From a virus, in IMG/VR virus record IMGVR_UViG_3300032085_000333, positions 1-33,722 of that record: a stretch of 33,722 nt of DNA. One strand, written 5' to 3'. The notes under the pieces are model-generated. The model saw only the letters and a program-made list of their open reading frames with translations, did not search any database and was not told where the DNA came from. Positions 1 through 28,608 of this stretch are shown here, in pieces. A program made the translations under genes and the position numbers. Position 1 is the first letter of the stretch. Each line of letters opens with the position of its first letter.

Positions 1-199
1 CGATATAAACTCTCTTAAACAGTCGCTAGAGAAGAAAGAACATCAAATAGAAATGCTAGTAGCAGCTAAAGACAATCTTGAAGAAATGGTAATTAACTTA
101 CAAAAAGAGATGTTACAAAACCAAGATAATATGATGGATAAAATCATCCTTAAAGCTGCTATGGATTTTGACGATAAGAATTACCCACCTAAAAAATAA
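1..199 (+). CDS. Coiled-coil membrane protein, 3' part (5' end outside window)
   Basis: This is the C-terminal 65 residues of the protein that appears complete at 33010-33411, read in frame from base 2. It is a charged helical segment rich in Leu, Glu, Lys and Gln, predicted coiled coil, ending in NYPPKK where the other copy ends NYPPK. The transmembrane N-terminus lies outside this end of the window. The stop TAA overlaps the ATG of the next ORF (TAATG). The differences from the 3' copy are mainly synonymous. The role is unknown; its position beside the endolysin and holin genes suggests lysis or the cell envelope. Confidence 0.8.
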   Translation, partial: DINSLKQSLEKKEHQIEMLVAAKDNLEEMVINLQKEMLQNQDNMMDKIILKAAMDFDDKNYPPKK

Positions 200-342
200 T
201 GAGAATTTTATTGTTTCTTTTATTTATTAGCTGCACTATTGATAAACAAGAAGAAGAATGTATTGTGGTTTCAAAAGAATGTCAAGTTAATAGACAAGGA
301 TTAAAGGAGTGTAACTCAATTTACGAATGTTACTATTATTAA
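199..342 (+). CDS. Small lipoprotein-like or secreted protein, 47 aa
   Basis: The ORF begins with a hydrophobic stretch (MRILLFLLFISC) followed by a polar, Cys-rich tail with Cys at positions 12, 21, 28, 38 and 44. The first Cys falls where a lipobox Cys would sit, but the preceding residues FIS are not an ideal lipobox. Placed beside an endolysin and a holin, it could be an Rz1-like outer-membrane spanin subunit; that is inference from size and position only. It is completely absent from the second copy of this region, where the flanking genes join directly, so it is dispensable or strain-variable. The start overlaps the upstream stop. Confidence 0.5.
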   Translation: MRILLFLLFISCTIDKQEEECIVVSKECQVNRQGLKECNSIYECYYY

Positions 343-354
343 ATAAATTATAAA

Positions 355-507
355 ATGGATAAAATAAAAGCACTAGCCTTAAAAGGATATGAAATGTTAA
401 AGGCTCAAATTATTAAAGATTGGAACGGTGGATTATTTCACAGGGGTAAACTTATATTTATTGGTGGAATATTATTATTAATTTTATTAGGCTTAATTAC
501 AAAATGA
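355..507 (+). CDS. Small single-TM membrane protein, 50 aa
   Basis: An amphipathic N-terminal half (about residues 1-30) precedes one hydrophobic helix (about 33-48, LIFIGGILLLILLGLI). The same gene occurs in the second copy of the region at 33420-33572 with a few conservative changes (K10Q, G25S, L27M), which supports its being a real gene. The stop overlaps the M15 peptidase start (ATGA), implying translational coupling. It could be a holin-like or accessory lysis protein that works with the peptidase; no family is recognised. Confidence 0.65.
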   Translation: MDKIKALALKGYEMLKAQIIKDWNGGLFHRGKLIFIGGILLLILLGLITK

Positions 508-860
508 ACCTTAATTACTTTTCCTTATCAGAGTTTGATTGTCCTAGTTTACCTAATTCAGGTAAGAATATGGATATTAACTTTCTTTATAAACTTGAAC
601 ACGCAAGAGAACTTGCAGGTATACCCTTTAAAATCACAAGTGGTTATAGAACAAAAGACCACAACGAAGCAGTTGGAGGAGTACCCAATTCAAGCCACCT
701 TATCGGAGTTGCAGCAGATATCGCAGTCGGTAGTGGAAACGAAAGATACATTATACTTAACGCACTTATCAGAGCAGGATTTAAAAGACTCGGAGTTGCA
801 AAAGGATTCATTCACTGTGATACAGACGAATCCAAACCAAACTCTGTTTGGACATACTAA
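504..860 (+). CDS. M15-family peptidase (endolysin)
   Basis: This 118-residue protein has the zinc-peptidase pattern of the M15 family (D-Ala-D-Ala carboxypeptidase / L-Ala-D-Glu endopeptidase type): ITSGYRT at 44-50, then SSHLIGVAADI at 63-73 with zinc ligands His65 and Asp72, and GFIHCD at 101-106 with the third ligand His104. Such single-domain enzymes cut the peptide stems of peptidoglycan and serve as endolysins in many phages. There is no signal peptide, so release probably depends on the holin encoded next at 879. The start overlaps the preceding stop by 4 bases. A second, diverged copy begins at 33569 and is cut by the window end. Confidence 0.9.
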   Translation: MNLNYFSLSEFDCPSLPNSGKNMDINFLYKLEHARELAGIPFKITSGYRTKDHNEAVGGVPNSSHLIGVAADIAVGSGNERYIILNALIRAGFKRLGVAKGFIHCDTDESKPNSVWTY

Positions 861-878
861 TACCGTAGGCACTACCTT

Positions 879-1295
879 ATGGCTGACAAAAAGAAATTTA
901 AAGATACCCAAGTAGGACAATTCCTTTTAAACAAAATACCTAACGTTGTACAAGCGGTTGCAGGAGATACTTTAGCAGGAAGTGTTATACAAGCTATTAT
1001 AGGGGGTTCTGAAATGTCAGATGAAGATAAACAGATAGCCTTAAAAAAACTTGATATAGAACGTGCTGAAATAGATGGTACTACAAGACGTTGGGTAGCT
1101 GATGCAAGAAGTGGTTCTTGGTTATCTTCAAATGTAAGACCATTAACATTAGTTTTCCTTACGGTTAGTTATGTAGTAGGATGGTATCTTAACTATCCTT
1201 TAGATTCAATTACAGGATTACTTTCAATTGTTATTGGAGGATACTTTGGAAGTCGTGGAGTAGAAAAAGTATTTGGTAATTCAAAACATAAGTAA
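879..1295 (+). CDS. Three-TM holin
   Basis: The 138 residues contain a hydrophobic N-terminal segment (about 20-43), a polar middle (44-75), and two strong transmembrane helices (about 84-103 and 108-128). The middle motif (TTRRWVADARSGSWLSSNVRP) followed by membrane helices is typical of the three-TM holin family also found in gene-transfer agents. It should form inner-membrane lesions that free the peptidase encoded immediately upstream. The start lies 18 bases after the endolysin stop, and the stop overlaps the next ATG (TAATG). The family assignment is by motif recognition. Confidence 0.8.
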   Translation: MADKKKFKDTQVGQFLLNKIPNVVQAVAGDTLAGSVIQAIIGGSEMSDEDKQIALKKLDIERAEIDGTTRRWVADARSGSWLSSNVRPLTLVFLTVSYVVGWYLNYPLDSITGLLSIVIGGYFGSRGVEKVFGNSKHK

Positions 1296-1426
1296 TGGCA
1301 AAGCAAATAGTTATTAACTACAAAAAAGTTAAAGTTAAACGTAAGGGTATCCATAGTAAAAACAAACAATCACAATTAAAAACTTCTAAAAACTACGTTA
1401 AGAAATATCGTGGTCAAGGAAGATAG
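1295..1426 (+). CDS. Small highly basic protein, 43 aa
   Basis: The product is rich in Lys and Arg (KKVKVKRKGIHSKNKQS) and has no acidic residues. Start and upstream stop overlap as TAATG, the usual coupling here. High positive charge suggests nucleic acid binding, or packaging with DNA, but no family is recognised. It is the last gene of the late block before the early-region promoter at about 1452. Confidence 0.6.
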   Translation: MAKQIVINYKKVKVKRKGIHSKNKQSQLKTSKNYVKKYRGQGR

Positions 1427-1451
1427 TGTTTATAACTTCTATTCATAAAAG

Positions 1452-1483
1452 TTTACATTAATCAAAAAAATGTTGTAATTTTG
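1452..1483 (+). promoter_or_regulatory. Putative host-type promoter for early region
   Basis: In the 110-base gap after the lysis genes, TTTA at 1452-1455 is followed 20 bases later by TAATTTTG at 1476-1483. This fits the Bacteroidetes housekeeping arrangement of a TTTG-like -33 box and a TAnnTTTG -7 box. It lies 53 bases before the first early gene. The assignment is by consensus only. Confidence 0.5.
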
Positions 1484-1536
1484 GTGGGTTAGTGGTAAAC
1501 TAATTAATAAATTTAACCATTAAATAAATATAATAA

Positions 1537-1779
1537 ATGTCAGAAGATTTAACAATAAGAAATTTAGCAGAAAAAATTGCTAAAGATTTTCAATTATCTG
1601 TAAAAGATAGAACAGATAGTATTTTAGAATTAGATGCTATATCATATACTAACTTAGGTATAGATAGTACTAAAGCTGAAACAAATAAAGTTAAATCAGA
1701 TAGTAAATATTTATATAGATTGATTAAAGGTTTTAATGAAACTGATGGCAAACTATTATTAAACCATCTTGATTCGTAA
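1537..1779 (+). CDS. Early protein of unknown function, 80 aa
   Basis: This is the first gene of the early region, preceded by an A+T-rich leader and a putative host-type promoter. The product is hydrophilic and predicted helical, with no cysteine and no membrane segment. The N-terminal half (TIRNLAEKIAKDFQLSVKDR) could be a small helical fold, but I do not recognise a family. First-expressed small phage proteins often modify host functions; that is only an expectation from position. Confidence 0.65.
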   Translation: MSEDLTIRNLAEKIAKDFQLSVKDRTDSILELDAISYTNLGIDSTKAETNKVKSDSKYLYRLIKGFNETDGKLLLNHLDS

Positions 1780-1783
1780 AACA

Positions 1784-2176
1784 ATGCCTAAAACAGCTAA
1801 AAAACCTACTAGAAGTAAACTTGTAAAAAAATTAGATACGATATTTAGCCAATACATAAGATTAAGCAATGCGGACAACAATGGATATTGTACTTGTGTT
1901 ACTTGCAATAAGACGTTCCATTGGAAAGAAATTCAAGCGGGACACTTTATGAGTAGAAAACATTATAGTATTCGTTGGGATGAACGTAATGTAAAACCTC
2001 AATGTGTAGCGTGTAATGTATATAGAGCAGGGGAACAGTATAAATATTCACTTTATTTAGGAAAAGAACTATCAGATGTATTATATTTACAAAGTAAAGA
2101 AATAGTCAAGTTTACTAACTACGAATTGGAAAATATGATAAACGATTACAGCGAAAAGCTGAAAAAACTTACTTGA
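1784..2176 (+). CDS. ninG: NinG/Rap-like recombination protein
   Basis: The 130-residue protein has the zinc-finger and HNH-like layout of lambda NinG (Rap): CTCVTC (Cys36, 38, 41), AGHFMSR around His54, and QCVACN (Cys74, Cys77, Asn78). Lambda NinG acts on branched recombination intermediates in phage recombination. I chose ATG at 1784 because an upstream extension would need an ATT start. The neighbours fit a recombination role: an ERF annealing protein, an SSB-like protein and a RecE-like exonuclease are in the same early region. A strong terminator follows the stop. Confidence 0.85.
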   Translation: MPKTAKKPTRSKLVKKLDTIFSQYIRLSNADNNGYCTCVTCNKTFHWKEIQAGHFMSRKHYSIRWDERNVKPQCVACNVYRAGEQYKYSLYLGKELSDVLYLQSKEIVKFTNYELENMINDYSEKLKKLT

Positions 2177-2205
2177 TTTTTTCTTGTAATATTGTTCTTT
2201 GTTTT

Positions 2206-2238
2206 AAGGGTAGGATTAATTTCTTACCCTTTTTTTTT
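2206..2238 (+). terminator. Rho-independent terminator after ninG
   Basis: A 7-bp stem, AAGGGTA at 2206-2212 pairing with TACCCTT at 2225-2231, encloses a 12-base loop and is followed by a run of T. It ends the first early transcript, and a new promoter-like sequence lies directly downstream. Confidence 0.85.
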
Positions 2239-2240
2239 AT

Positions 2241-2265
2241 ATGTTAATTTTTTTTTATAAATTTA
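2241..2265 (+). promoter_or_regulatory. Putative host-type promoter for recombination genes
   Basis: ATGTTAA at 2241-2247, a T tract and TAAATTTA at 2258-2265 resemble the better copies at 6295, 8707 and 12485. It lies between a terminator and the small ORF at 2270, exactly where a restart promoter is needed. The match is weaker than the others, and the -7-like box is only 4 bases from the ATG. Confidence 0.4.
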
Positions 2266-2269
2266 CATT

Positions 2270-2371
2270 ATGGAACAATACACAAAAGCAGAACTCTATG
2301 GCAAGGTCTTAGAACTGCAGCACGAACTAGAACAAGTTAAAAAACAATTAATTTTAAATTTAAAACAATGA
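2270..2371 (+). CDS. Small coiled-coil protein, 33 aa
   Basis: A 33-codon ORF rich in Glu, Lys, Gln and Leu with heptad spacing (KVLELQHELEQVKKQL) suggests a short coiled coil. Its TGA overlaps the ATG of the ERF gene (ATGA), so it may act as a translationally coupled leader peptide. No family can be assigned to so short a protein. Confidence 0.55.
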   Translation: MEQYTKAELYGKVLELQHELEQVKKQLILNLKQ

Positions 2372-2895
2372 GCAAAGAAGTAAGTATTAACGAAAAGCTG
2401 TTTAATCTACAACAAGAGATAGGTACAATTAGTAAAGACACTAAAAACCCATTTTATAAATCAAAGTATTTTGATATTAATTCACTTATTAAACAATTAC
2501 AACCATTACTAAAACAAAATAGATTACTTCTATTACAACCTATTGAGGAAGATATGGTATACAGTAAACTAATATGTATAGATGGAACAGGTGGTGTCAT
2601 AAGTGCTTTAAAATTGCCACAAATAACAGATCCACAAAAGTTAGGATCATGCATTACATATTATAGAAGATATACTTTAGCAAGCTTATTAGGTTTACAA
2701 GCTGTTGATGATGATGGTAATTTAACTGTAAATGCATCTTCTACAAATAATAAAGAAGAAAAAAGGACTTTAAATATAAATACCAATGCTTTTGAAAAAG
2801 CTAAGGAATTTATTGTTAATGGAGGATCTATAGATAATATAGAAAAAAAATACACACTTACTAAAGATGCTAGAGATGTCCTCTCTAAATTGTAA
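2368..2895 (+). CDS. erf: ERF-family single-strand annealing protein
   Basis: The protein is 175 aa. The N-terminal 120 residues match the ERF family: KNPFYKSKYFDINSLI at 26-41, then GSCITYYRRYTLASLLGL at 93-110 and the acidic DDDG at 114-117. ERF proteins bind single-stranded DNA and anneal complementary strands, usually with an exonuclease and an SSB. Here those partners are probably the RecE-like nuclease at 9314 and the DUF3127 protein at 2955. The C-terminal 50 residues after the Ser/Thr/Asn-rich linker (about 121-145) form a small extra helical part. Translation is coupled to the 33-codon ORF upstream. Confidence 0.9.
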   Translation: MSKEVSINEKLFNLQQEIGTISKDTKNPFYKSKYFDINSLIKQLQPLLKQNRLLLLQPIEEDMVYSKLICIDGTGGVISALKLPQITDPQKLGSCITYYRRYTLASLLGLQAVDDDGNLTVNASSTNNKEEKRTLNINTNAFEKAKEFIVNGGSIDNIEKKYTLTKDARDVLSKL

Positions 2896-2912
2896 AATAA
2901 AATGTGTATATT
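2890..2912 (+). promoter_or_regulatory. Host-type promoter-like motif before SSB-like gene
   Basis: TTG at 2890-2892 and TATATT at 2907-2912, 17 bases apart start to start, match the TTG/TATATT arrangement of the sites at 6295, 8707 and 12485. The site overlaps the end of the ERF gene and lies 42 bases before the next ATG. Confidence 0.5.
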
Positions 2913-2954
2913 ACACAACTAAATATAATAATAAACAAGTAAAAATTAAAATTT

Positions 2955-3287
2955 ATGGAAATCAGAGGTATTATCAAAACTATTCAAGAAAAACAAACTA
3001 TAAGTGATAAACTAAGTAAACAAAGTTTTGTTGTAACAACAGATGAAAAATATCCGCAAGATATTATAATCGAGTTGATAAATGACAATATTAGTTTATT
3101 AAGTACTCATAAGGTAGGTAGTAAAGTTGAAGTTGGTATTAATTTAAGAGGACGTGAGTGGATAAACCCACAAGGTGAAACCAAATATTTTAACTCAATT
3201 CAAGGTTGGAGAGTAGCTCAATGGCTTGGTGGGGTTAGCAATTCAGACCAACAACCAGGAAGAGAAGAAGATGATTTTTTAATTTAA
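2955..3287 (+). CDS. DUF3127-like single-strand DNA-binding protein candidate
   Basis: The 110-residue protein begins MEIRGIIKTIQEKQTIS and contains KQSFVVTTDEKYPQDI and GREWINPQGETKYFNSIQGW, all features of the DUF3127 family, which is common in Bacteroidetes and their phages and has an OB-like, SSB-resembling fold. The acidic tail (EEDDFLI, residues 104-110) resembles the C-terminal tip by which SSB proteins dock partners. The genome has no other SSB candidate, so it probably covers single strands during replication and recombination. It is placed between the ERF and helicase genes and is followed by a terminator. Confidence 0.8.
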   Translation: MEIRGIIKTIQEKQTISDKLSKQSFVVTTDEKYPQDIIIELINDNISLLSTHKVGSKVEVGINLRGREWINPQGETKYFNSIQGWRVAQWLGGVSNSDQQPGREEDDFLI

Positions 3288-3296
3288 TATTTAATA

Positions 3297-3320
3297 GGGG
3301 GTTAATAGCCCCCATTTTTT
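3297..3320 (+). terminator. Rho-independent terminator or attenuator
   Basis: Five G (3297-3301) pair with five C (3309-3313) around a 7-base loop, followed by ATTTTTT. The next ORF begins 3 bases after the T run. No new promoter is evident, so it probably acts as an attenuator that lowers helicase expression relative to ERF and SSB. Confidence 0.75.
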
Positions 3321-3322
3321 GT

Positions 3323-3469
3323 ATGAAAAAATACATGGTAGGTGATCCTTTCCCAGATGATTTTTGGAATTACGATGTAAACGTAATAACAGGATATAAG
3401 GTAGAAAAAAAAGAGGTAAATTCAAAAGCGGTAGAACAAAAGTACAAACAAACAACACAAGGAATATGA
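3323..3469 (+). CDS. Small protein of unknown function, 48 aa
   Basis: The ORF starts just behind the terminator hairpin and ends with ATGA overlapping the helicase start. The N-terminal half has an aromatic acidic patch (DPFPDDFWNYD) and the C-terminal half is basic. No family is recognised. The tight junction with the helicase gene supports its being translated. Confidence 0.6.
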   Translation: MKKYMVGDPFPDDFWNYDVNVITGYKVEKKEVNSKAVEQKYKQTTQGI

Positions 3470-4383
3470 TAGCTCAAGCAAAGAAATTACAAGACAAGAT
3501 ATTAGATATAAAGTATGGTAGAATAAAAGAGGGATTAAAAATAGATATTCCTGAAATAGATGAACATTTAAGATATAAACAAGGAAATTTTAACTTAATA
3601 ATTGGTCATGCAAATGTAGGTAAAACTACGATTATTATATATTTATTTGTATTATGGGCAATAAAACATAAATTAAAGTTTCTTATTTGGTCAAGTGAAA
3701 ATACTCCACAAAGTATCGTAAGAAAAGTTATAGAATTTAAAATGGGTAAACCAATACAACAAGCTAACGAATCTGAAATAGCTTTAGCTATTACTTGGTG
3801 TGATAATCATTTTAAAATAATAGATGTTGAGGATTTATATTCATATAAAAACCTACTTAAAGAAGCTAACCAGATAAAAGATGCATGGAACTACGATTCA
3901 TTATTGATTGATCCATATAATAGCTTAAGTAAAGATCCATCATTACAAAAGTTATTAGGTAATTCTCATGAATATGATTATCAAGTTGCTTCAGAGTTTA
4001 GATTATTAGCTAAAAAAAGAAACATAACAGTGTTTTTAAATGCTCACGGTGTTACTTCAGCTTTAAGATCAATACACCAAAATGGACACGAATACCAAGG
4101 ATTACCAAAACCATTATCAATGGCTGACGTAGAAGGTGGTGGTAAGTGGGGAAACAGAGCTGATGATATTTTATGCATACATAGATATACAAGTCACAAT
4201 ACTGACTGGATGTACAGTAATTTATATATTTTAAAGGTAAAAGAAAATGAAACAGGTGGAAGACCTACTGTACATGAAAGTCCTTTAAAGTTAAAAATGA
4301 AAAAAAATAATGTAGGATTTGAATTTTTAGGAAAAGATTTAATACATGACAAACAAACTATAGTTAAGGAATTAGATATATGA
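3466..4383 (+). CDS. DnaB/RecA-type ATPase, probable replicative helicase
   Basis: The 305-residue protein has a RecA-fold core: Walker A GHANVGKTT at 47-55, a SENTP segment at 77-81, Walker B DSLLIDP at 144-150, and a later AHGVTS region typical of DnaB-like hexameric ATPases. There is no DnaB N-terminal domain and no fused primase, so it is the short KaiC/DnaB-like form found in phages. It is the only helicase candidate in the genome, which encodes no DNA polymerase or primase that I can see, so it presumably recruits the host replisome. The RecA-like fold does not exclude a recombinase role. Confidence 0.8.
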   Translation: MIAQAKKLQDKILDIKYGRIKEGLKIDIPEIDEHLRYKQGNFNLIIGHANVGKTTIIIYLFVLWAIKHKLKFLIWSSENTPQSIVRKVIEFKMGKPIQQANESEIALAITWCDNHFKIIDVEDLYSYKNLLKEANQIKDAWNYDSLLIDPYNSLSKDPSLQKLLGNSHEYDYQVASEFRLLAKKRNITVFLNAHGVTSALRSIHQNGHEYQGLPKPLSMADVEGGGKWGNRADDILCIHRYTSHNTDWMYSNLYILKVKENETGGRPTVHESPLKLKMKKNNVGFEFLGKDLIHDKQTIVKELDI

Positions 4384-4601
4384 TTGTAATAGGATTTTTA
4401 TTAATAGTAGCATTTGTATTTGTAATCATTGGGCATAACAAAGGTGCTGATGTTTATATAAGTCCTATTAAAGGAATAATGTTTGGCTTTTTATATCACA
4501 AAGAACAAGAAACACAAGGAGACGAGTATACCCTGCAATGTTTGTTAGGGGTAATTAGTATAACTGTGATATGGATAAACCAACAGAATGGCTCTCAATA
4601 G
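4380..4601 (+). CDS. Small membrane protein, 73 aa
   Basis: Two hydrophobic segments (about residues 2-18 and 54-67) flank a polar middle. The start overlaps the helicase stop (ATGA), and the 3' end overlaps the sigma-like gene by 31 bases. The function is unknown; early phage membrane proteins sometimes affect superinfection or host envelope functions. Support comes from overlap geometry and hydrophobicity rather than a recognised family. Confidence 0.6.
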   Translation: MIVIGFLLIVAFVFVIIGHNKGADVYISPIKGIMFGFLYHKEQETQGDEYTLQCLLGVISITVIWINQQNGSQ

Positions 4602-5134
4602 TCTTTAAAAGGCACAAAGAGTGGATTAAAATAGTAAATAGCTTTGGCGAGTTTAACTATGCTGAGGATTTTGTGCAAGAAATGTATCTTGTAATATATA
4701 AATATGCAGATGAAGATAAAATTATTAAGAATGGCAATGTCAGTCGTGGCTACATTTATTTTACTCTTCGTTCTATCTATTTCCAATATTATAATAGTAA
4801 AAAAAGAATTGACAAAATTTATATTGATGATAATGAATCTACCATCCAAATTCAAGACCATTCGGAAATGGATGAACAAGTAGCTTATAATAATTTATGT
4901 CAACTAATAGATGAACATATAGAAAATTGGAGATGGTATGAAAGAAAAATGTTTACATTATATAGAGACTCTAGTTTAAGCATAAGAGGAATAGCTGCTG
5001 AAACTGGAATAAGTTGGGTGAGTATATACCATACTTTAAAAAAAGCTAAAAATGAAATTAAAGAAAAATTTAATGACAATTATATAGATTATAAAAACCA
5101 AGATTATGAAAGAATCCAAAAAAACAAAAAGTAA
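4571..5134 (+). CDS. Small sigma-70/ECF-like transcription factor
   Basis: The 187-residue protein has the two-part layout of ECF-type sigma factors. A region-2-like helical segment spans 28-80 (NYAEDFVQEMYLVIYKY, then GYIYFTLRSIYFQYYNSKKR). An acidic linker (81-105) follows, and then a region-4-like helix-turn-helix at about 136-160 (LSIRGIAAETGISWVSIYHT), where a sigma factor would read the -35 element. The C-terminal tail is very basic. It is expressed from the early region, before the structural genes, and is the obvious candidate to direct host RNA polymerase to the TAACAAA-N12-TTATTGT sites found only before late genes. That link is inference. It could instead be an HTH regulator without sigma activity. 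Confidence 0.75.
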   Translation: MDKPTEWLSIVFKRHKEWIKIVNSFGEFNYAEDFVQEMYLVIYKYADEDKIIKNGNVSRGYIYFTLRSIYFQYYNSKKRIDKIYIDDNESTIQIQDHSEMDEQVAYNNLCQLIDEHIENWRWYERKMFTLYRDSSLSIRGIAAETGISWVSIYHTLKKAKNEIKEKFNDNYIDYKNQDYERIQKNKK

Positions 5135-5513
5135 AAAATACAAAGAATACAAAGATAATTATGAATCAAAAAGCAAAGGTGTTGGTGATACAGTTGCAAA
5201 GATTACAAAAGCAACTGGAATAGAGAAAGCAGTTAAGTTTTTAGCAGGTGAGGACTGCGGATGTGATGAACGTAAAAAAGTTTTAAATCATATATTTCCT
5301 TATCAAAAGCCTTTATGTTTTACAGAAAATGAGTATATTTACTTGACACAACGTATTAATAAAATTAATAAAGTTACTGTTGAAGAACAAAAAGAGTTAT
5401 TAAGTATTTATAATAGAGTATTTAAAGACAATAGAGAATTAACAAGTTGCAGTAGTTGTTTTTTAAATGGTGTTTGGAAAAAACTAGAAAGATTATATAA
5501 AGAATATGAATAA
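5106..5513 (+). CDS. Cys-rich conserved phage protein, possible zinc binder
   Basis: The 135-residue protein has a Lys-rich N-terminus, then GVGDTVAKITKATGIEKAVK at 26-45, CGCDERK around 52-58, and a later CSSC pair near 117-120. Proteins with this GDTVAKIT...GxDCGCDERK pattern recur in Bacteroidetes phages. The paired cysteines suggest a structural metal site. It overlaps the sigma-like gene by 29 bases, so the two are co-expressed and might cooperate. The function is not known to me. Confidence 0.7.
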   Translation: MKESKKTKSKKYKEYKDNYESKSKGVGDTVAKITKATGIEKAVKFLAGEDCGCDERKKVLNHIFPYQKPLCFTENEYIYLTQRINKINKVTVEEQKELLSIYNRVFKDNRELTSCSSCFLNGVWKKLERLYKEYE

Positions 5514-5820
5514 AAAATTGAACAATATTAAAGAAGCAGAGTATTATACTAATTTTAATTTAGTTGGAGAAAACATTGTTAAATCCAAAAAAGCTAAACC
5601 TAATAATAAATCTATTTTAGATATGTATTTTGCATGGCAAGAAATAGGTTTTTATGTGCACAACCTTATTAGTAATGAAAGGGCATACGAACAATCGTTA
5701 AGCGAATACAGAAGCGACAAAATACGAGCAGTTGAACGTGCGAGAATAGCAGAGGAAGAAGTTGCTAAACTAAAGGTAGAGATAGACAAATTACAAACTA
5801 GAATCAATGTTGGTATTTAA
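5506..5820 (+). CDS. Coiled-coil protein of unknown function, 104 aa
   Basis: An N-terminal globular part (1-55) with aromatic residues is followed by a long helical stretch (about 60-100, RVERARIAEEEVAKLK-like heptads) that should form a coiled coil. It overlaps the preceding gene by 8 bases. No family is recognised. Such proteins in this position may be adaptors for replication or transcription complexes, but nothing in the sequence decides this. Confidence 0.65.
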   Translation: MNKKLNNIKEAEYYTNFNLVGENIVKSKKAKPNNKSILDMYFAWQEIGFYVHNLISNERAYEQSLSEYRSDKIRAVERARIAEEEVAKLKVEIDKLQTRINVGI

Positions 5821-5899
5821 AATAATTTTAGGTTATGGAGTGTTGAGGTTGTTTGAAGCAATGATAGTAAAAGCAATAAAAGAAAGTAAAGATGAGTGA
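5807..5899 (+). CDS. Very small hydrophobic ORF, 30 aa
   Basis: A 30-codon ORF overlaps its upstream neighbour by 14 bases and its downstream neighbour by 8, filling a gap that would otherwise be empty. The peptide is hydrophobic and amphipathic in its first 24 residues and charged at its end (ESKDE). It may be a real micro-gene or just a coupling leader; the length gives no family evidence. Confidence 0.4.
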   Translation: MLVFKIILGYGVLRLFEAMIVKAIKESKDE

Positions 5900-6161
5900 T
5901 AGTAAAAAGAAATACCAAGAAATGATGGAAGATGGTAAGTGGTCAACTGATAGTACAAGTTATTCATATAACAATATACCTAAAGACCCGATAGTGCAGA
6001 AGGTAGTTAATAAATTTCATTCACGTTCTAGGGATGGTATATTAAAATACGGAACTACTCTGTACGATAGTCCAGATGATTTTTATTCTTTTTTAAACCA
6101 TCTACAAGAGGAACTTATGGATGCTTGTCTTTACATAGAGACAATAAAAAAACAAAAGTAA
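5892..6161 (+). CDS. MazG-like nucleotide pyrophosphohydrolase candidate
   Basis: The 89-residue protein has the pattern of small phage all-alpha NTP pyrophosphatases: R45, R47 and G49 leading to KYG at 52-54, then HLQEELMDACLYIE at 70-83, where Glu73, Glu74 and Asp77 would bind metal. These enzymes cleave (d)NTPs to (d)NMPs and pyrophosphate. A second family member is encoded at 9012. Together they may empty the normal dCTP pool and supply dCMP to the hydroxymethylase-like enzyme at 8055. Substrate cannot be read from sequence. A non-catalytic relative is possible because only one helical metal motif is clear. Confidence 0.6.
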   Translation: MSDSKKKYQEMMEDGKWSTDSTSYSYNNIPKDPIVQKVVNKFHSRSRDGILKYGTTLYDSPDDFYSFLNHLQEELMDACLYIETIKKQK

Positions 6162-6165
6162 AACA

Positions 6166-6291
6166 ATGAAAGAAAGTACATTAGTAAAAATGCAATACGA
6201 TTTAAAGTTAGTGCAACAAGTATCAGTAGTATTGTTAAATAAAGTTGAGGCACTAGAAAAAAAATTAGAAGAAAATAAAGTAGAAAAATAG
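6166..6291 (+). CDS. Small helical protein, 41 aa
   Basis: A 41-codon ORF with regular Leu/Val heptads (LVQQVSVVLLNKVEALEKKL) predicts a short coiled coil or oligomerisation helix. It begins 4 bases after the MazG-like gene and ends just before a promoter-like sequence. No function is recognised. Confidence 0.55.
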   Translation: MKESTLVKMQYDLKLVQQVSVVLLNKVEALEKKLEENKVEK

Positions 6292-6294
6292 TAG

Positions 6295-6318
6295 TTGTTA
6301 AAAAATTGTTTATATTTA
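6295..6318 (+). promoter_or_regulatory. Host-type promoter for modification module
   Basis: TTG at 6295-6297, with TATATTTA at 6311-6318, is spaced exactly as in the sites at 8707 and 12485 (16 bases start to start), and shares the intervening TTAAAAAA-n-TGTT. An A-rich leader ending CAAAACAATT precedes the ATG at 6335, and an almost identical leader precedes the gene at 8755. This should drive the genes from 6335 through the glucosyltransferase. Confidence 0.65.
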
Positions 6319-6334
6319 CAAAAACAAAACAATT

Positions 6335-6484
6335 ATGTACGAACAATTATTTTATCAATCTTACACTATCCAAGAACTAGAAAGGGTAGTAAATGACCCT
6401 ACACAACTTGATGGGTATCGTAGGAGATGCGAACAAGAATTAAACAACCGTAAAGAACAACAGCAAGAAATAACAAGGTTATGA
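6335..6484 (+). CDS. Small hydrophilic protein, 49 aa
   Basis: This is the first gene after the promoter at 6295. The product is acidic to neutral at the start (MYEQLFYQSYTIQELERVV) and Arg/Gln/Glu-rich at the end, likely helical. The stop overlaps the next start (ATGA). The function is unknown; it is co-transcribed with the glucosyltransferase. Confidence 0.6.
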   Translation: MYEQLFYQSYTIQELERVVNDPTQLDGYRRRCEQELNNRKEQQQEITRL

Positions 6485-6747
6485 ATATACTAGAAAAAGC
6501 AAATGAGATAGTAAACACTAGATCAGAAGAAAAAGAACGTATGTATGGTCCTTTTGAAGAAGGAATGGAAAGAGCTGCTATGATAGCATCGGGTTGCACA
6601 GGTAAGACTTTAACAGCAAGTGACATGTATCTATGCCTTGTAGCTTTAAAGCTATCTAGACAATCTTATAATCACAAAGAAGATAATTTATTAGATGCAG
6701 TAGCGTATTTAGGATCTTTAAATAATCATAAAAACAAAGAGCAATGA
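6481..6747 (+). CDS. DUF6378-like phage protein
   Basis: The 88-residue protein has the layout I associate with DUF6378: RxxxYGPFEEGMERAA at the front (19-33), a central LTASDMYLCLVALKLSR (44-60), and EDNLLDAVAYLGSL near the end (67-80). This family is widespread in phages, often near nucleotide-metabolism genes, with a helical fold resembling MazG-type proteins; its activity is not established as far as I know. It sits directly upstream of the DNA glucosyltransferase (stop and start overlap as ATGA), so a nucleotide-pool role in base modification is plausible but inferred. Confidence 0.65.
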   Translation: MNILEKANEIVNTRSEEKERMYGPFEEGMERAAMIASGCTGKTLTASDMYLCLVALKLSRQSYNHKEDNLLDAVAYLGSLNNHKNKEQ

Positions 6748-7937
6748 AAATATCCATATTATTAGGAAGAGGTGTAGAAGGTTGTGGAGTTACAAGGTTT
6801 GCAACAGAATTTCAAAATTATTTAACATCTCAAGGTTACGAATGTAATACTTATGCTAGTTTAGATAAAAAATGGGGTAGAAAAAATAGTCAAAATATAA
6901 ACGTTATTGAGTTTACTAATGAAGAAATAAATAAAATAAAAAATAAACTTAATGAAAGCGACATTGTATTTTATCAATCATTACCTAGTAAATCAAACTC
7001 AGATATATATAAAGAAAAGTTTTTTAATGAATTAGTTGTTAATGTAACTAAACCAATAAAGATAATTTTCCAAAATGACCATCATGTTATGAGTTTAAAT
7101 AGAAATCATAACTTATGGGAAACTGTAGATAATGTTGATTGTGCTTTTACTTTTGGAAAAGGAACCGTGTTTTATAAAAAAATACAAGATTATAACATTA
7201 CGACACCGGTTAAATTTTTTAATAATGGACATGATTTTAATAAATTAAAACACTTAATAAAAAAAGATCAAATAAAAAAAGTTTCTTACTTAGGTAGGTT
7301 TGCAACATTTAAGGATCCTAAAAGAATGATATATTTACAACCTATGTTAAAAGAACATGGTATATATTCAGAGGCTCGTGGTATTGAAAAATCAATAGGT
7401 GCTAAATGTAAGTTTTTTTCTAAAAATGAAAAGAACATTAAAGATGGTGAATTTGAAAACATCATGTATAGATCTAAAAGCATTGATGACGAACAAGATA
7501 TAAACTTTTTAAATGTATATGGACCTTATGAAAGGTTAAGTACTTTGGAATTATTATCAAACAATATGTTTGGCGCTAATTTCTTTAACTTACCTGTTAA
7601 TCAATATAGCAATATATTAGAATATTCTACATTAGAAATGATTAATGTTGGAATGATAAATATAGTTGATAAACATTGGGCTGAAAATAATTATCATATA
7701 CAAGGTGATAGTTTTTTTGACTTAGATTGTTTTGTTTATAGCGATAAAAATAATTTACAAGACACTGTAGATCAAATAGTTACATTGTCAAACAACAGGG
7801 ACTTGAGGAGAAAAAAAAGGAAATTAGCTTATGAGGTTGCCAAAACACATTGTAGTGTTGAAGTGGCTTTTAAAGACTTAATAGAAAAATCTAAAAAAAT
7901 AACAAAACGTGAAAAAGAATCAACATTATTATTTTAA
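6744..7937 (+). CDS. agt: DNA alpha-glucosyltransferase homologue (T4 AGT type)
   Basis: The 397-residue GT-B enzyme resembles T4 alpha-glucosyltransferase, which transfers glucose from UDP-glucose to 5-hydroxymethylcytosine in DNA; T4 AGT is about 400 residues. Matches recalled from the T4 protein: the opening GRGVEGCGVTRF at 8-19 (T4 ARGLEGCGVTKF); FQNDHHVMSLNRN at 109-121 (T4 YQHDHSVLSLRRN), keeping the Asp equivalent to T4 Asp115 but with Asn for T4 His114; YLGRFATFKD at 182-191 (T4 WIGRTTTWKG); and LEYSTLE at 292-298 (T4 LEYTHLE), in the nucleotide-sugar half. Similarity over the glycine-rich start is far beyond a generic glycosyltransferase. A dCMP-hydroxymethylase-like gene follows two ORFs later, supporting a DNA acceptor. 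The sugar donor and anomer cannot be proven here; a protein or other modified-base acceptor is less likely. Confidence 0.85.
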   Translation: MKISILLGRGVEGCGVTRFATEFQNYLTSQGYECNTYASLDKKWGRKNSQNINVIEFTNEEINKIKNKLNESDIVFYQSLPSKSNSDIYKEKFFNELVVNVTKPIKIIFQNDHHVMSLNRNHNLWETVDNVDCAFTFGKGTVFYKKIQDYNITTPVKFFNNGHDFNKLKHLIKKDQIKKVSYLGRFATFKDPKRMIYLQPMLKEHGIYSEARGIEKSIGAKCKFFSKNEKNIKDGEFENIMYRSKSIDDEQDINFLNVYGPYERLSTLELLSNNMFGANFFNLPVNQYSNILEYSTLEMINVGMINIVDKHWAENNYHIQGDSFFDLDCFVYSDKNNLQDTVDQIVTLSNNRDLRRKKRKLAYEVAKTHCSVEVAFKDLIEKSKKITKREKESTLLF

Positions 7938-8076
7938 ATTTGCAGGCACGATAATAGAAGGTAGGTTTATTAGAGAAGATGTATTGAATGACGATACAAA
8001 AGTGTTTATATTTAACGACGGTGAATTTACATATCCAATTAGAAAAGAAAACTTATGTGGCAATTCAAAACAATAA
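7909..8076 (+). CDS. Small protein with GTG start, 55 aa
   Basis: An open frame of 55 codons begins at a GTG inside the end of the glucosyltransferase gene and runs 22 bases into the hydroxymethylase-like gene. It fills a gap that otherwise has no gene. The product is Tyr/Phe-rich with alternating strands (HYYFKFAGTIIEGRFIRE, then KVFIFNDGEFTYPI), suggesting a small beta fold. There is no in-frame ATG, so GTG is the only good start. Its place between two modification enzymes makes it a possible accessory factor. No family is recognised. Confidence 0.5.
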   Translation: MKKNQHYYFKFAGTIIEGRFIREDVLNDDTKVFIFNDGEFTYPIRKENLCGNSKQ

Positions 8077-8699
8077 CAGAGGCATTTGAACATTATTATG
8101 AAAAGTTAGATAGTCAACCAGAATTTAATGGTACTAAAGCTTTTTATAATCAAATGTTTACTATTACAGATACAACTGATAAAATAGTAAGAACTCCATG
8201 GCGTAACTTTAAAATAGACTATGCTGAAAAAGAATGGGAATGGTATTTAAGTAAGAATCCATCAGCTGAAAGTATAGCAAAAGTAGCTAAGATTTGGTAT
8301 AATCACATGGATGAACGTGGATATGTTAACTCTAATTATGGATTTCAATGGAGTCGTAACGATCAATTAGGTTATGTTATTAAAGAACTACAACGTAACA
8401 AATATTCAAGACGTGCAGTAATATCTATATATGATGGAAAAGAACATGACAAATATTCTAAAGATACACCATGTACTTTAAGCATACAATTCTATTTTAC
8501 ACCTGATTCTGATAAATTACACATGACTGTATTAATGAGATCAAATGACTTATGGTTTGGATTTTGTAATGATGCATATTGTTTTTTAAATTTGCATGAT
8601 ATTGTATGTAGTTATTTAAAAGTAGATAAAGGTTTTTATACTCATTATGCACAAAACTTACATATTTATGAAAGACATTATAAAAAAATGCCAAAATAA
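8055..8699 (+). CDS. dCMP hydroxymethylase-like enzyme (thymidylate synthase fold)
   Basis: The 214-residue protein has the core of the thymidylate synthase family: VNSNYGFQW (about 94-102), SRRAVIS (about 118-124), TPC with the catalytic Cys near 139, MRSNDLWFGFCND (about 160-172), and NLHIYERHY near the end. In thymidylate synthase the last residue of the RSxDxxxGxxxN motif is Asn, which reads dUMP. Here it is Asp, as in T4 gp42 dCMP hydroxymethylase (recalled motif MRSNDVVFGFRND), which specifies dCMP. The PCH of thymidylate synthase is PCT here. Predicted reaction: dCMP plus methylene-tetrahydrofolate to 5-hydroxymethyl-dCMP. At 214 aa it is somewhat shorter than gp42. Pairing with the glucosyltransferase upstream supports 5-hydroxymethylcytosine over methylation. 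No dedicated hmdCMP kinase is visible, so a host kinase would be needed. Confidence 0.85.
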   Translation: MWQFKTITEAFEHYYEKLDSQPEFNGTKAFYNQMFTITDTTDKIVRTPWRNFKIDYAEKEWEWYLSKNPSAESIAKVAKIWYNHMDERGYVNSNYGFQWSRNDQLGYVIKELQRNKYSRRAVISIYDGKEHDKYSKDTPCTLSIQFYFTPDSDKLHMTVLMRSNDLWFGFCNDAYCFLNLHDIVCSYLKVDKGFYTHYAQNLHIYERHYKKMPK

Positions 8700-8706
8700 T
8701 TTTTCA

Positions 8707-8728
8707 TTGTTAAAAAAATGTTTATATT
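8707..8728 (+). promoter_or_regulatory. Host-type promoter before gene at 8755
   Basis: TTG at 8707-8709 and TATATT at 8723-8728 have the same 16-base spacing and the same TTAAAAAAA-TGTT core as the site at 6295. The leader ends AAAACAAAACATT before the ATG, nearly the same as the leader before 6335. It should drive the unknown gene, the MazG-like gene and the RecE-like nuclease. Confidence 0.65.
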
Positions 8729-8754
8729 AGCTTTATAATTAAAAACAAAACATT

Positions 8755-9015
8755 ATGAATTTATTACACGGAATTAAATTTGAACATATTGGTTACTTTG
8801 TAGAATACATGCAAGGTAATAAATATATTGGATCTATTAATTTAGAAGAAGCAGATAGAGATATTATTGGTTATTATGGTAGACAAGATCATATAGCAAC
8901 TGAAGATATTATTTTCAAAAACAAACGTATACGTAAAGGTGAATCATATCATACTAGATTATATCCTTTATGTGGTCGTTCTAATTTTAACCCTAAAAAT
9001 GTAACAACGTTATGA
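8755..9015 (+). CDS. Protein of unknown function in modification module, 86 aa
   Basis: This is the first gene behind its own promoter, between the hydroxymethylase-like and MazG-like genes, overlapping the latter by 4 bases (ATGA). The 86 residues are rich in Ile, Tyr and Gly (HIGYFVEYMQGNKYIGSIN, DRDIIGYYGRQDHI) and look like a compact alpha/beta domain. I recognise no family. The placement suggests a function in nucleotide metabolism or protection of modified DNA, but the sequence does not show it. Confidence 0.6.
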   Translation: MNLLHGIKFEHIGYFVEYMQGNKYIGSINLEEADRDIIGYYGRQDHIATEDIIFKNKRIRKGESYHTRLYPLCGRSNFNPKNVTTL

Positions 9016-9314
9016 TATTAAACAATGAATTCGAACCAATTAGAAATTGGGCAAAAGAAAAAGGAATACTAGATAAAGGAGATCCAAAGACTCAATTCGT
9101 AAAATTACTAGAAGAAGTTGGTGAATTGTCACATGGTATTTTAAAGCAAGATAGATTAGAAATAGAAGATGCTATCGGAGATTGTGTTGTAGTACTTACT
9201 AATTTAGCTTACTTGTGTAATACTTCTATAGAATCATGTATTGAAGGAGCTTACTCTGAAATATCAGGTAGAACAGGTGAAATGATTAATGGAACATTTG
9301 TAAAGGATAAATAA
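9012..9314 (+). CDS. MazG-like nucleotide pyrophosphohydrolase
   Basis: The 100-residue protein has the MazG motif pair: KLLEEVGELS at 31-40 (Glu34, Glu35, Glu38) and IEDAIGDCVVVLTNLA at 51-66 (Glu52, Asp53, Asp57), which bind magnesium in enzymes that cleave NTPs to NMP and pyrophosphate. In a phage that also has a dCMP hydroxymethylase-like enzyme, a role like that of T4 gp56 (dCTP to dCMP, keeping normal C out of DNA and feeding the hydroxymethylase) is attractive but inferred. Start and stop both overlap the neighbouring genes. Confidence 0.8.
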   Translation: MILNNEFEPIRNWAKEKGILDKGDPKTQFVKLLEEVGELSHGILKQDRLEIEDAIGDCVVVLTNLAYLCNTSIESCIEGAYSEISGRTGEMINGTFVKDK

Positions 9315-10351
9315 TGATAGAAGTAATAAAACAACCTAAGTGGAAACATATAACTTTTAAAACTTCTAAATTAAACTTTCTTAATTGGTCTTTAGAACAA
9401 GGTGGTGTCAATATAATTATTGATGATAATAACTATAAGTTTGAAACTCAAAACGAATTAGAAGCTTTAAGAATTAATTTAGTACCATCTTTTAAAGGTC
9501 CTGAAACATGTTTTGTACCAGTAGCAGACATGAAATCAATATACACAAAAAGCAAAGATAGAATGGAAAAGATAAAACTATTAAATGGATCTGTTTGGAA
9601 TAAAGAAGAATTGATATCTAAAATGTATGATGATTCTTTTTATTATGGAGAACTTGGTAAATATGCTTTAAGTAGTTCAGCTATTAAATCTTTAATGGAT
9701 TCACCTAAAAGTTATGCAAGATCATTAAACTTTCATTCTGATTCAGGTGCTTTTAAAATGGGTAGATTAATTCACTTAGCTGCTTTAGAACCAGAAAAGT
9801 TAGATACATTATGTCATGTTGTAGAAGTACAATCAGCAGTAACTAAAAAGTATAAAGAAAAAGTAGCAGAAGTAGGTAGTGCTCAATTTGTATTTACAAG
9901 AAAAGAATATGATAAGGCTATGTATACTGTAGATGCTTTATTACAAAATGATATTTGGCAAGACTTAACTAGAGGTGCTCAATTTGAACAGCCAGCATTT
10001 GACATATTAGATGGTTTTCCTTTTAGAGCTAAAGCTGATGTATTAGGTTTTGACTACATAGCTGATTTAAAAACAACAAGTGATCTTAAGAATTTTACTT
10101 GGGCAGCTAAAAAATATGGTTATGATGTACAAGTTTACATTTACTGTAACTTATTCAAGGTTGACTATAAAGATTTTAAGTTTTTTGCAATAGATAAATC
10201 TTCTGGTGATTTAGGAATATATGATGTAAAAGAAAGTTTTTATAATTCAGGCAAAGACAAAGTACAATATGGATTAGATATATTTAAAAAGTTTTTTGTA
10301 GATCAAACTGATCAAATAAACGAATATGTTATCCAAGGAACACTTGAGTAA
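9314..10351 (+). CDS. RecE-like PD-(D/E)XK exonuclease
   Basis: The 345-residue protein has a nuclease core from about residue 115: LSSSAIKSLMDSPKSYA (119-135), GRLIHLAALEP (150-160) with His154, PFRAKADVLG with Asp242, IADLKTT with the Asp251-x-Lys253 pair, and Gln273 in VQVYIY. This is the RecE/exonuclease VIII-type motif order. It would resect double-stranded ends so that the ERF protein at 2368 can anneal them. Oddly, the first 105 or so residues are not part of the nuclease; they carry a separate small domain (about 8-75) similar in size to domains sometimes fused ahead of phage exonucleases. Its start overlaps the MazG-like stop by one base. Confidence 0.85.
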   Translation: MIEVIKQPKWKHITFKTSKLNFLNWSLEQGGVNIIIDDNNYKFETQNELEALRINLVPSFKGPETCFVPVADMKSIYTKSKDRMEKIKLLNGSVWNKEELISKMYDDSFYYGELGKYALSSSAIKSLMDSPKSYARSLNFHSDSGAFKMGRLIHLAALEPEKLDTLCHVVEVQSAVTKKYKEKVAEVGSAQFVFTRKEYDKAMYTVDALLQNDIWQDLTRGAQFEQPAFDILDGFPFRAKADVLGFDYIADLKTTSDLKNFTWAAKKYGYDVQVYIYCNLFKVDYKDFKFFAIDKSSGDLGIYDVKESFYNSGKDKVQYGLDIFKKFFVDQTDQINEYVIQGTLE

Positions 10352-10559
10352 AAATTTAGTTAGTGAATTTTATTTACTAGCATTAATAGATATAGCAAAC
10401 GGTAAGGATATAGCGGAACTTGAAAAAGCTATTGATATGTATGAAAAAGTAGAAGAATACGAAGCCTGTGCAGGAATATTAAAAGCAATACACGAATCAG
10501 GTTATATGACAATAAGAGAAATAATAAACGAAATAAACGATATAAAAAATGACAAGTAA
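10326..10559 (+). CDS. Helical protein of unknown function, 77 aa
   Basis: The acidic, helical protein (DIAELEKAIDMYEKVEEYEA) overlaps the exonuclease gene by 26 bases and the next gene by 11. No family is recognised. It could be a small partner of the nuclease or of the DnaA-like protein, judging only from the tight packing. Confidence 0.65.
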   Translation: MLSKEHLSKNLVSEFYLLALIDIANGKDIAELEKAIDMYEKVEEYEACAGILKAIHESGYMTIREIINEINDIKNDK

Positions 10560-11013
10560 ACTAGTAAAAGAAATAGTAGAAGATTATTACAAACTAAAGA
10601 TAGATACTAAGACACGACAAAGAAAGTATGTAGAAGCAAGAGCAATTTATTACAAACTACTAAGAGAAAACAGTAGGATGAGTCTAGAAGCAATAGGCAA
10701 AACAGTAAATAGAGACCACGCTACTGCTATACATTCTTTAAAACAAATAAAAGACTGGTTAGAATATGACAAAGAAATAAAAAGAGATTACAATACTATC
10801 AATAGTAGGTTACAGGATGCAATGAGATTAAACCCTGAACTATTTAAGGATGTACTAACGATGGAAAGTTTTTATGAGATAGAATACCACAGACTAAAAC
10901 ACGATAGCGACATTAAATATAAATCACTTTTAACTAAATATCACTTCTTAAAATCACGTTTAGAAAAGTACGAACCTAATAGAGTTGAACGTGGAGAATT
11001 TGATCTAGTTTAA
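10549..11013 (+). CDS. DnaA domain IV-like DNA-binding protein
   Basis: The first half matches the DNA-binding domain IV of DnaA: RKYVEARAIYYKLL (25-38), where DnaA has its R..AR..A..L helix, and IGKTVNRDHATAIHS (49-63), which equals the DnaA signature around DHTTVxHA that reads DnaA boxes. There is no AAA+ ATPase domain; the second half (about 75-154) is an extended helical tail. It probably binds a phage origin or acts as a regulator. It ends the early block, two bases before the first late-type motif at 11011 (the motif begins within its stop codon). Confidence 0.75.
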   Translation: MTSKLVKEIVEDYYKLKIDTKTRQRKYVEARAIYYKLLRENSRMSLEAIGKTVNRDHATAIHSLKQIKDWLEYDKEIKRDYNTINSRLQDAMRLNPELFKDVLTMESFYEIEYHRLKHDSDIKYKSLLTKYHFLKSRLEKYEPNRVERGEFDLV

Positions 11014-11036
11014 CAAAATAAAGTAAATCTTATTGT
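11011..11036 (+). promoter_or_regulatory. Late promoter-like motif 1 (before terminase)
   Basis: TAACAAAA at 11011-11018 and TTATTGT at 11030-11036, 19 bases start to start. This is the same bipartite element found before six structural genes. It lies 32 bases before the small terminase ATG. The two halves also form an imperfect dyad (TAACAA versus TTATTGTTA), so an operator is an alternative reading. Confidence 0.7.
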
Positions 11037-11068
11037 TATAGTAGAATCATTAATGAAATTTTTTGATT

Positions 11069-12484: not shown

Positions 12485-12510
12485 TTGTTAAAAAAAAGTT
12501 TATATATTTG
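12485..12510 (+). promoter_or_regulatory. Host-type promoter of post-terminase cassette
   Basis: TTG at 12485-12487 with TATATATTTG at 12501-12510 contains a perfect TAnnTTTG box (12503-12510) and shares the TTGTTAAAAAA core and spacing with the sites at 6295 and 8707. It starts a two-gene unit lying inside the late region, unlike the late-type motifs around it. Confidence 0.7.
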
Positions 12511-13009: not shown

Positions 13010-13035
13010 ATACAGTTTACCTATTTAATTATTGT
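13010..13035 (+). promoter_or_regulatory. Late promoter-like motif 2 (tail block), degenerate left half
   Basis: TTATTGT at 13029-13035 is preceded by ATACAG at 13010-13015, whose C is 16 bases before TTATTGT as in the other six sites. The left half is the weakest of the set. The motif is followed by ATATAT and then the ATG at 13042, so the right half ends 6 bases before the start codon. Confidence 0.6.
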
Positions 13036-13041
13036 ATATAT

Positions 13042-21763: not shown

Positions 21764-21789
21764 TAACAAAATAAGATAAAATTTATTGT
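21764..21789 (+). promoter_or_regulatory. Late promoter-like motif 3 (before protease)
   Basis: TAACAAAA at 21764-21771 and TTATTGT at 21783-21789, 19 bases start to start, followed by TTAAAT and then ATG at 21796. The right half ends only 6 bases before the start codon, so a transcript starting downstream of it would be leaderless or nearly so. Confidence 0.75.
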
Positions 21790-21795
21790 TTAAAT

Positions 21796-23164: not shown

Positions 23165-23190
23165 TAACAAAACGTTAAATATATTATTAT
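23165..23190 (+). promoter_or_regulatory. Late promoter-like motif 4
   Basis: TAACAAAA at 23165-23172 and TTATTAT at 23184-23190 (one mismatch to TTATTGT), again 19 bases start to start. The ATG at 23206 is 15 bases further on. Confidence 0.65.
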
Positions 23191-23205
23191 AATAAAAAAC
23201 ACATT

Positions 23206-23594: not shown

Positions 23595-23620
23595 TAACAA
23601 ACACATTTATAATTTATTGT
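23595..23620 (+). promoter_or_regulatory. Late promoter-like motif 5 (scaffold and capsid)
   Basis: TAACAAA at 23595-23601 and TTATTGT at 23614-23620, 19 bases start to start, then AATATAT and ATG at 23628 (7 bases). It drives the scaffold-like and capsid genes, whose transcript is closed by the strong hairpin at 25222. Confidence 0.75.
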
Positions 23621-23627
23621 AATATAT

Positions 23628-25202: not shown

Positions 25203-25221
25203 TAAAAAGATTAACTAACTT

Positions 25222-25884: not shown

Positions 25885-25910
25885 TAACAAAAATCAAATA
25901 ATATTATTGT
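25885..25910 (+). promoter_or_regulatory. Late promoter-like motif 6 (portal unit)
   Basis: TAACAAAA at 25885-25892 and TTATTGT at 25904-25910, 19 bases start to start, then ATATAT and ATG at 25917. It is placed directly after a terminator, as a promoter should be. Confidence 0.8.
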
Positions 25911-25916
25911 ATATAT

Positions 25917-28504: not shown

Positions 28505-28608
28505 AATATAAACCAAAACAGGAAAACGTGAATAAGTTAAAACAGTACTTAGCTTATATAACAAAAACCAAAAAAAGTAATTGTAATAATATAAATAACA
28601 TTAAATGA
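28492..28608 (+). CDS. Small basic ORF, 38 aa
   Basis: A 38-codon ORF overlaps the adaptor gene end by 13 bases and the next start by 4 (ATGA). The peptide is Lys/Asn-rich (MGALKYKPKQENVNKLKQYL). Late motif 7 lies inside it, so it is transcribed only from upstream. It could be a real gene or only a translational link between neighbours. Confidence 0.4.
   Translation: MGALKYKPKQENVNKLKQYLAYITKTKKSNCNNINNIK
28559..28584 (+). promoter_or_regulatory. Late promoter-like motif 7 (fibre unit)
   Basis: TAACAAAA at 28559-28566 and TAATTGT at 28578-28584 (one mismatch), 19 bases start to start. The next ATG at 28605 is 20 bases further on. It should drive the tail-fibre genes. Confidence 0.65.

Follow-up and report, generated by a model that had tools for sequence, protein, structure and literature searches.

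Phage sigma factors that are made early and switch the host RNA polymerase to late genes are represented by T4 gp55 and SPO1 gp28. T4 gp55 is not of the ECF type; it reads a -10 element only and needs gp33 as well as the sliding clamp. The phiEco32 protein gp36 is usually called ECF-type. As described in PMC8948821, phi32_gp36 recognizes a single element, tAATGTAtA, has no region 4 homology and works together with gp79, with transcription starting 6-8 bp after the element. For SaPh711_gp47 of the Salmonella phage 7-11 the same account gives a bipartite late promoter, GTAAtg-(16)-aCTA, with a start 6-9 bp from the element. The original prediction for the locus studied here had hinted at an unprecedented late reader outside the T4 and SPO1 type; these two proteins are precedents. 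The motif computed earlier for phage 7-11 (as given in PMC4331800) differs from the later experimental one (as given in PMC8948821), and such pairings of sigma factor and promoter can thus fail. We found no literature on the late regulation of Bacteroidota phages, judged in part by title, and the topic appears to be little described.

The stretch of DNA analysed here, called the window in the following, is a 33.7-kb virus record (33,722 nucleotides) whose plus strand holds nearly all genes. We consider it very probable that an early-made phage ECF-type sigma factor, encoded at 4571-5134, together with the host core RNA polymerase starts late transcripts at a two-block motif.

The sigma gene and its surroundings

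The early genes of the window encode an Erf-like annealing protein, SSB, a helicase, the sigma factor, a PDDEXK-like protein and a DnaA-C-like protein. Tail genes follow the terminase, and the late half also contains tail/adhesin genes. The features that bear on the argument are the following:

4571-5134, plus strand: predicted ECF-type sigma factor, 187 aa (ATG at 4571, stop codon ending at 5134), with region 2 at about residues 6-79, a linker at 80-98 and region 4 at about 99-175
5106-5513, plus strand: conserved Cys-rich neighbour, 135 aa, overlapping the sigma gene, with invariant G-GDT and DCGC..R
10549-11013: DnaA-C-like HTH protein (Pfam Bac_DnaA_C, E 1.8e-12)
11305: terminase large subunit
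21796: head maturation protease
24258: putative major capsid protein, so named from its position (PHROG_11320, without function)
26258: portal

The sigma ORF overlaps both its upstream gene and its downstream neighbour. Searched as a single sequence against Pfam, the protein gives a weak match (Sigma70_r4_2, E 0.0022, under the curated cut-off). It is matched by PHROG_1740, 'RNA polymerase sigma factor' (E 1.3e-9), by NCBIfam TIGR02985 (E 6e-10) and by TIGR02937 (sigma70-ECF) with E 1.5e-8 over 26-164 of 165, but with 34.5 bits against a cut-off of 42.9. All 28 of the 28 family members match TIGR02937 at E <= 0.01, and the region-2 signature ED-VQEMY, within residues 32-39, is invariant in the alignment of these 28 sequences. 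The family profile found no match among PDB sequences. The AlphaFold model (pLDDT 80.5) consists of two helical domains and a low-confidence linker near 81-97, which is the ECF (group IV) arrangement of regions 2 and 4 only with a short linker between them. The best whole-chain Foldseek matches were E. coli sigmaE (6jbq and 1or7), followed by Mtb SigL/SigH. Predicted region 4 aligns with sigmaE region 4 on -35 DNA (2h27; Z 8.6, rmsd 1.9 A, 69 residues) and predicted region 2 with sigmaE region 2 on -10 DNA (4lup; Z 8.1, rmsd 3.1 A, 78 residues), Z values of 8-9 being middling for helical models. The assignment is made because both domains, the domain order and the sequence families agree; apart from the single-sequence Pfam match, 4571-5134 is thus clearly predicted to encode a two-domain ECF-type sigma factor.

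In relatives having both genes, the homologue of 5106-5513 adjoins the sigma gene or lies within ~230 nt of it. The encoded protein, whose predicted structure is poor (pLDDT 65), is possibly a sigma co-factor. Among the 31 of 47 listed ORFs that were scanned with Pfam and/or PHROGs, there was no other RNA polymerase subunit and no antiterminator, in agreement with the original prediction, and no T4-type gp33 co-activator or sliding-clamp gene was seen. Rfam and tRNA scans were empty.

As an observation in its own right, the window carries, close together (6744-7937, 8055-8699 and 9012-9314), genes for a T4-type DNA alpha-glucosyltransferase (AGT, E 1.6e-16), a thymidylate-synthase-family protein that is a candidate nucleotide hydroxymethylase, and a MazG protein. 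Taken together, these genes suggest that glucosylated hydroxymethyl-pyrimidines may be present in the phage DNA. Of the 45 records examined below, only G001 has the glucosyltransferase. Furthermore, the window ends 1-639 and 33216-33704 repeat each other with 94%, not 100%, identity, as would be seen with an assembly that overlaps itself across two strain variants or with terminal redundancy of the genome.

The late motif in the window, in relatives and in P12024S

A motif resembling TAACAAAA-N11-TTATTGTA occurs in six copies with identical spacing, and a seventh copy, at 13010, has a weak -35 block:

11011..11039, plus strand: putative late promoter before the small ORF 11063/11069 and the terminase large subunit gene (11305)
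13010..13038, plus strand: putative late promoter with weak -35 (ATACAGTT) and strong -10, 5 nt before ATG 13042
21764..21792, plus strand: putative late promoter 5 nt before ATG 21796 (head maturation protease)
23165..23193, plus strand: putative late promoter 14 nt before ATG 23206
23595..23623, plus strand: putative late promoter 6 nt before ATG 23628 (gene preceding the putative major capsid gene 24258)
25885..25913, plus strand: putative late promoter with the exact consensus, 5 nt before ATG 25917; the portal gene follows at 26258
28559..28587, plus strand: putative late promoter 19 nt before ATG 28605 (tail/adhesin end)

All seven sites are on the plus strand and fall in gaps immediately ahead of late genes, within the part that runs from the terminase region to the tail end; none lies in 1-10,999. 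Both the early sigma-like ORF and the restriction of the motif to late genes, as originally claimed, were therefore confirmed. Two blocks with an AAC-type -35, as in six of the copies, are what an ECF factor would be expected to read, and we infer that the 4571-5134 protein is their reader. Searching the window for TAACAAA-N12-TTATTGTATA with up to 3 mismatches gave 7 matches against 1.41 expected, a number reached in 0 of 100 shuffles. Six of these are sites of the list, all on the plus strand; the remaining match (16888, minus strand) is inside a gene. De novo EM scored the window motif at 86.7 compared to 70-77 in shuffled controls, a small margin, and returned mostly terminators in relatives; it was therefore not used as evidence.

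A T-tailed hairpin lies directly upstream of the 25885 promoter (~25850-25874). T-tailed G+C-rich hairpins at 25203-25276 and 25826-25880 stand between the putative capsid gene, gene 25277 and this promoter, so that the head genes seem to be split into short transcription units. Another repeat, TTGTTAAAAAANTGTTTATATT, is of an early type:

6295..6316, plus strand: TTGTTAAAAAANTGTTTATATT, with more copies at 8707 and 12485-12506

Its 3 matches (0.07 expected) precede genes 6481, 8755 and 12508. As the small gene 12508 is inside the late half, the division into early and late is not absolute.

Related phages were collected by two scans. A viral scan with the sigma protein gave 57 loci, from which 25 records were taken whole or nearly whole (G019 among these is unlikely to be a true relative). 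The other scan, which used the putative capsid protein, kept 80 of 597 loci; 33 records were tested for sigma and 20 of the 33 were read. The sigma gene was found in 12 of these 33, including 10 of 10 longer than 25 kb; its presence or absence was dropped as a test, the gene occurring in almost every long relative. In a host search, the sigma profile matched none of the genome contigs. The putative capsid gene occurs in three genome contigs, labelled Flavobacteriaceae, Bacteroidia and Woesearchaeota MAG; the last of these, a 59% relative on a chromosome (L212, CP070803.1), is probably a binning error or indicates an unexpected host.

In relatives whose sigma is 85-94% identical, both blocks are kept and the spacer is changed; the 11011 and 13010 promoters are kept in G001, G002 and G003, where the 11011 spacer is altered. 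Transferring the exact window matrix to distant relatives found almost nothing, since the -10 differs there, which becomes visible only when orthologous late genes are aligned. Such alignments reveal a homologous promoter with a lineage-specific -10. Among 46 genomes (the window and 45 records), 35 could be given a promoter class, set by eye from three genes. Six genomes were left unclassed for lack of a usable site (G011, G019, G022-G025) and five because they gave none or conflicting classes (G015, G031, G039, G040, G043); the labels of G020, G021 and G038 depend on one weak site each. The -10 classes are:

class A: TATTGTA
class B: [AG]GTTATA
class C: CGTTATA
class E: ATTACTTT

The check for co-occurrence in relatives, proposed together with the original prediction, thus found the motif alongside the sigma gene, with a -10 specific to the lineage. 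An AACA-type -35 block, [AT][AG]CA, precedes the -10 core by 19 nt in class A (23 sites), 18-19 nt in B (25 sites) and 20 nt in C (8 sites). The promoter is also in fixed register with the gene: at three orthologous genes, selected for having the motif right against the start codon in the window, the distance from the start of the -10 core to the ATG is 12 nt at 31 of 32 B, 13 of 16 C and 20 of 30 A sites. For seven of the A sites the distance reads 15 nt, probably because the pattern catches the TATTATT of TATTATTGTA three bases early.

In the 35 classed genomes, class-specific motif matches by identifiable genes number 93 before late genes (583 starts) and 0 before early genes (262 starts), a contrast whose Fisher p should not be read at face value, as the genomes are related. 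Matches followed by an ATG 3-6 nt on exceed those in shuffles in class A (45 vs 3.8), B (33 vs 6.2) and C (11 vs 0.6), counts for which the patterns were partly designed on the sites later counted. When the held-out genes 23628, 11063 and 28605 were searched, 32 of 50 starts carried the genome's own class and 3 of 50 a different one, chance rates per stretch being 0.1-2.3%; only 5 of 14 B sites were recovered, and the test was not blind, as the B pattern had been loosened (GT[TA]A) after one of the genes (23628) had been seen.

These data also bear on whether the motif might be a translation or processing signal, an A/T-rich sequence favoured by flavobacterial ribosomes before start codons. 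In favour of such a signal are the fixed distance between motif and ATG and the absence of Shine-Dalgarno sites in these hosts. We nevertheless regard it as most unlikely, given a -35 block at a fixed offset of 18-20 nt, the absence of the motif from all 262 early gene starts, window copies standing 14-31 nt from the start codon and the T-tailed hairpin directly upstream of one copy.

A promoter read by a phage sigma factor also fits a cultured phage. The gp33 of Nonlabens (Persicivirga) phage P12024S, annotated as a hypothetical protein containing Sigma-70 region 2 (P12024S/L: NC_018271, NC_018272), matches the sigma family profile with E 6e-14, and gp35 matches the profile of the Cys-rich 5106 family with E 1e-15. 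Searching P12024S for AAAACAAA-N14-CGTTAATA gave 10 matches. Seven of them (4 exact and 3 near) stand before gp01, gp05, gp08, gp35, gp41, gp44 and gp45, each 3-4 nt from an annotated late ATG, and the remaining three are scattered. The gp35 gene, homologous to 5106-5513, thereby has its own putative late promoter. This phage fits class C, although classes A, B, C and E were already known when it was looked at, and the distance of its promoters from the ATG predicts leaderless late mRNAs.

Promoter classes and sigma lineages

The sigma tree covers 29 of the 35 classed genomes, the other 6 being without a full sigma. Promoter classes change 3 times on this tree, which is the minimum, compared to a mean of 14 after shuffling. 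The tree of the putative capsid gene requires 6 changes and that of its neighbour 25277 requires 9. Early genes compared with sigma on the same rows gave 3 vs 2 changes (5106), 4 vs 2 (10549), 4 vs 2 (504) and 4 vs 3 (9314). Trees of the terminase, the portal, 28001, 21796, 23628, 13042 and 13781 also require 3 changes; these late-gene trees fit equally well, so that the result is congruence, not proof, and much of it is shared phylogeny.

In a partial Mantel analysis of 25 genomes, the correlation of promoter similarity with sigma identity was 0.42 (p 0.0005) once putative-capsid identity was controlled for, and the reverse, capsid given sigma, gave -0.02 (p 0.54). With 17 control genes the sigma partial correlation had p < 0.05 in 16, but several controls keep a correlation too; controlling for gene 13781 brought sigma down to 0.12 (p 0.10), and gene 9314 correlates more strongly (0.57) than sigma (0.52) in the 19 genomes that have it. 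A telling genome is G027, where gene 24258 is 81% and gene 25277 88% like its window counterpart, the sigma is divergent (31%) and the promoters are of class C. By this comparison of sequences, capsid genes have passed from one lineage to another and left their promoters behind, but the present data alone do not set sigma apart from the remainder of the genome. A case in the opposite direction is the contig G023 (L096), which has a B-type sigma in its early half and one A-type site in its tail end; it switches relatives inside the long tail gene 1470-5429 and may be mosaic or chimeric. Overall, the original claim that the sigma factor reads the late motif is supported by homologous late promoters in relatives and by classes fitting the sigma tree with 3 changes, a pairing that is inferential and in part reflects shared phylogeny.

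The same comparisons apply to other candidate readers. Another early phage DNA-binding protein, for example the DnaA-C-like HTH protein 10549-11013, might bind the motif and activate late transcription; it has a DNA-binding fold, its gene adjoins the first late promoter, and its identity tracks promoter similarity (0.38; 0.27 given sigma). This is very unlikely in our judgement: on the 18 rows shared with sigma its tree requires 4 changes and the sigma tree 2, tblastn found no homologue in class C records, which still have the promoters, and a pair of blocks with constant offset is the layout of a promoter rather than of a DnaA box. Unlikely, too, is that a host alternative (ECF) sigma, activated by infection, reads the motif while the phage sigma acts at other promoters or sequesters the host polymerase. 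Flavobacteria have several ECF sigmas, and different phage lineages may have different hosts; but a motif read by a host factor should tend to stay the same, whereas the late promoters vary between lineages in step with the phage sigma, and the latter is kept in every one of the related records longer than 25 kb.

Proposed late switch and comparison with known systems

With the phage sigma as the reader, the early region including the sigma gene would be driven by host-type promoters; these we infer, because a host-promoter scan for TTTG-N-TAnnTTTG gave 4 matches against 3.1 expected and thus no signal. The 4571-5134 protein would then bind the host core RNA polymerase, with the AACA block (-35) recognized by region 4 and the TTATTGTA block (-10) by region 2, and the resulting holoenzyme would open the late promoters and initiate late transcription. 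With the -10 core beginning 12 nt ahead of the ATG at most of the genes concerned, and if the start lies 6-8 bp after the element as reported in PMC8948821 for phi32_gp36, late transcription would begin at or beside the A of the ATG. The motif-ATG distance thus points to late mRNAs that are leaderless or nearly so.

We lean towards a broader reading, in which one Bacteroidota phage lineage holds at least four distinct specificities of ECF sigma and late promoter, moving capsid genes land under the promoter of the resident sigma, and leaderless late mRNAs are the rule, the promoter being tied to a fixed register with the start codon. If the proposed switch is right, leaderless late mRNAs would be programmed in a host group where such mRNAs are reported to make up only 5.5% (F. 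psychrophilum, PMC9723704). The lineages would provide naturally diverged pairs of sigma and promoter in which the evolution of ECF specificity could be studied, the late promoter set would be readable from any genome of the group, and a cultured phage, P12024S, is available for testing.

Like E. coli sigmaE and other cellular ECF sigmas, the window protein has region 2 and region 4 only, and its proposed promoters have an AAC-type -35 and a matching -10 offset: sigmaE promoters have the form GGAACTT-N16-TCTAA, in which AAC and -10 are offset by ~21 nt, as in the window motif. The cellular factors differ in being stress regulators with anti-sigma factors, and in structural alignment they share only ~13-18% identity with the window protein. 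With T4 gp55 and SPO1 gp28 the window sigma has in common that it is placed early and proposed to switch the host polymerase to late genes. There is also a likeness to phage 7-11 gp47, a phage sigma that sends the host core RNA polymerase to bipartite late promoters, as proposed for the window; the likeness is in logic only, since the window motif is not GTAAtg-(16)-aCTA. The phiEco32 gp36 is likewise a divergent phage sigma using the host core, in its case at middle and late promoters (as described in PMC8948821); the window protein differs from it by a clear predicted region 4 (1.9 A over 69 residues) and by its two-block motif. P12024S/L gp33 belongs to the same sigma family by profile, has a neighbour of the same Cys-rich family (gp35) and is accompanied in P12024S by the seven CGTTAATA-type late promoters, whose -10 is class C-like, unlike that of the window. 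Phage sigma factors reading late promoters are already known from the enterobacterial phages phiEco32 and 7-11. What would be new, as read from these genomes, is such a system in Bacteroidota phages, with a full region 4, an AAC-type -35, several diverged specificities and a promoter in register with the start codon.
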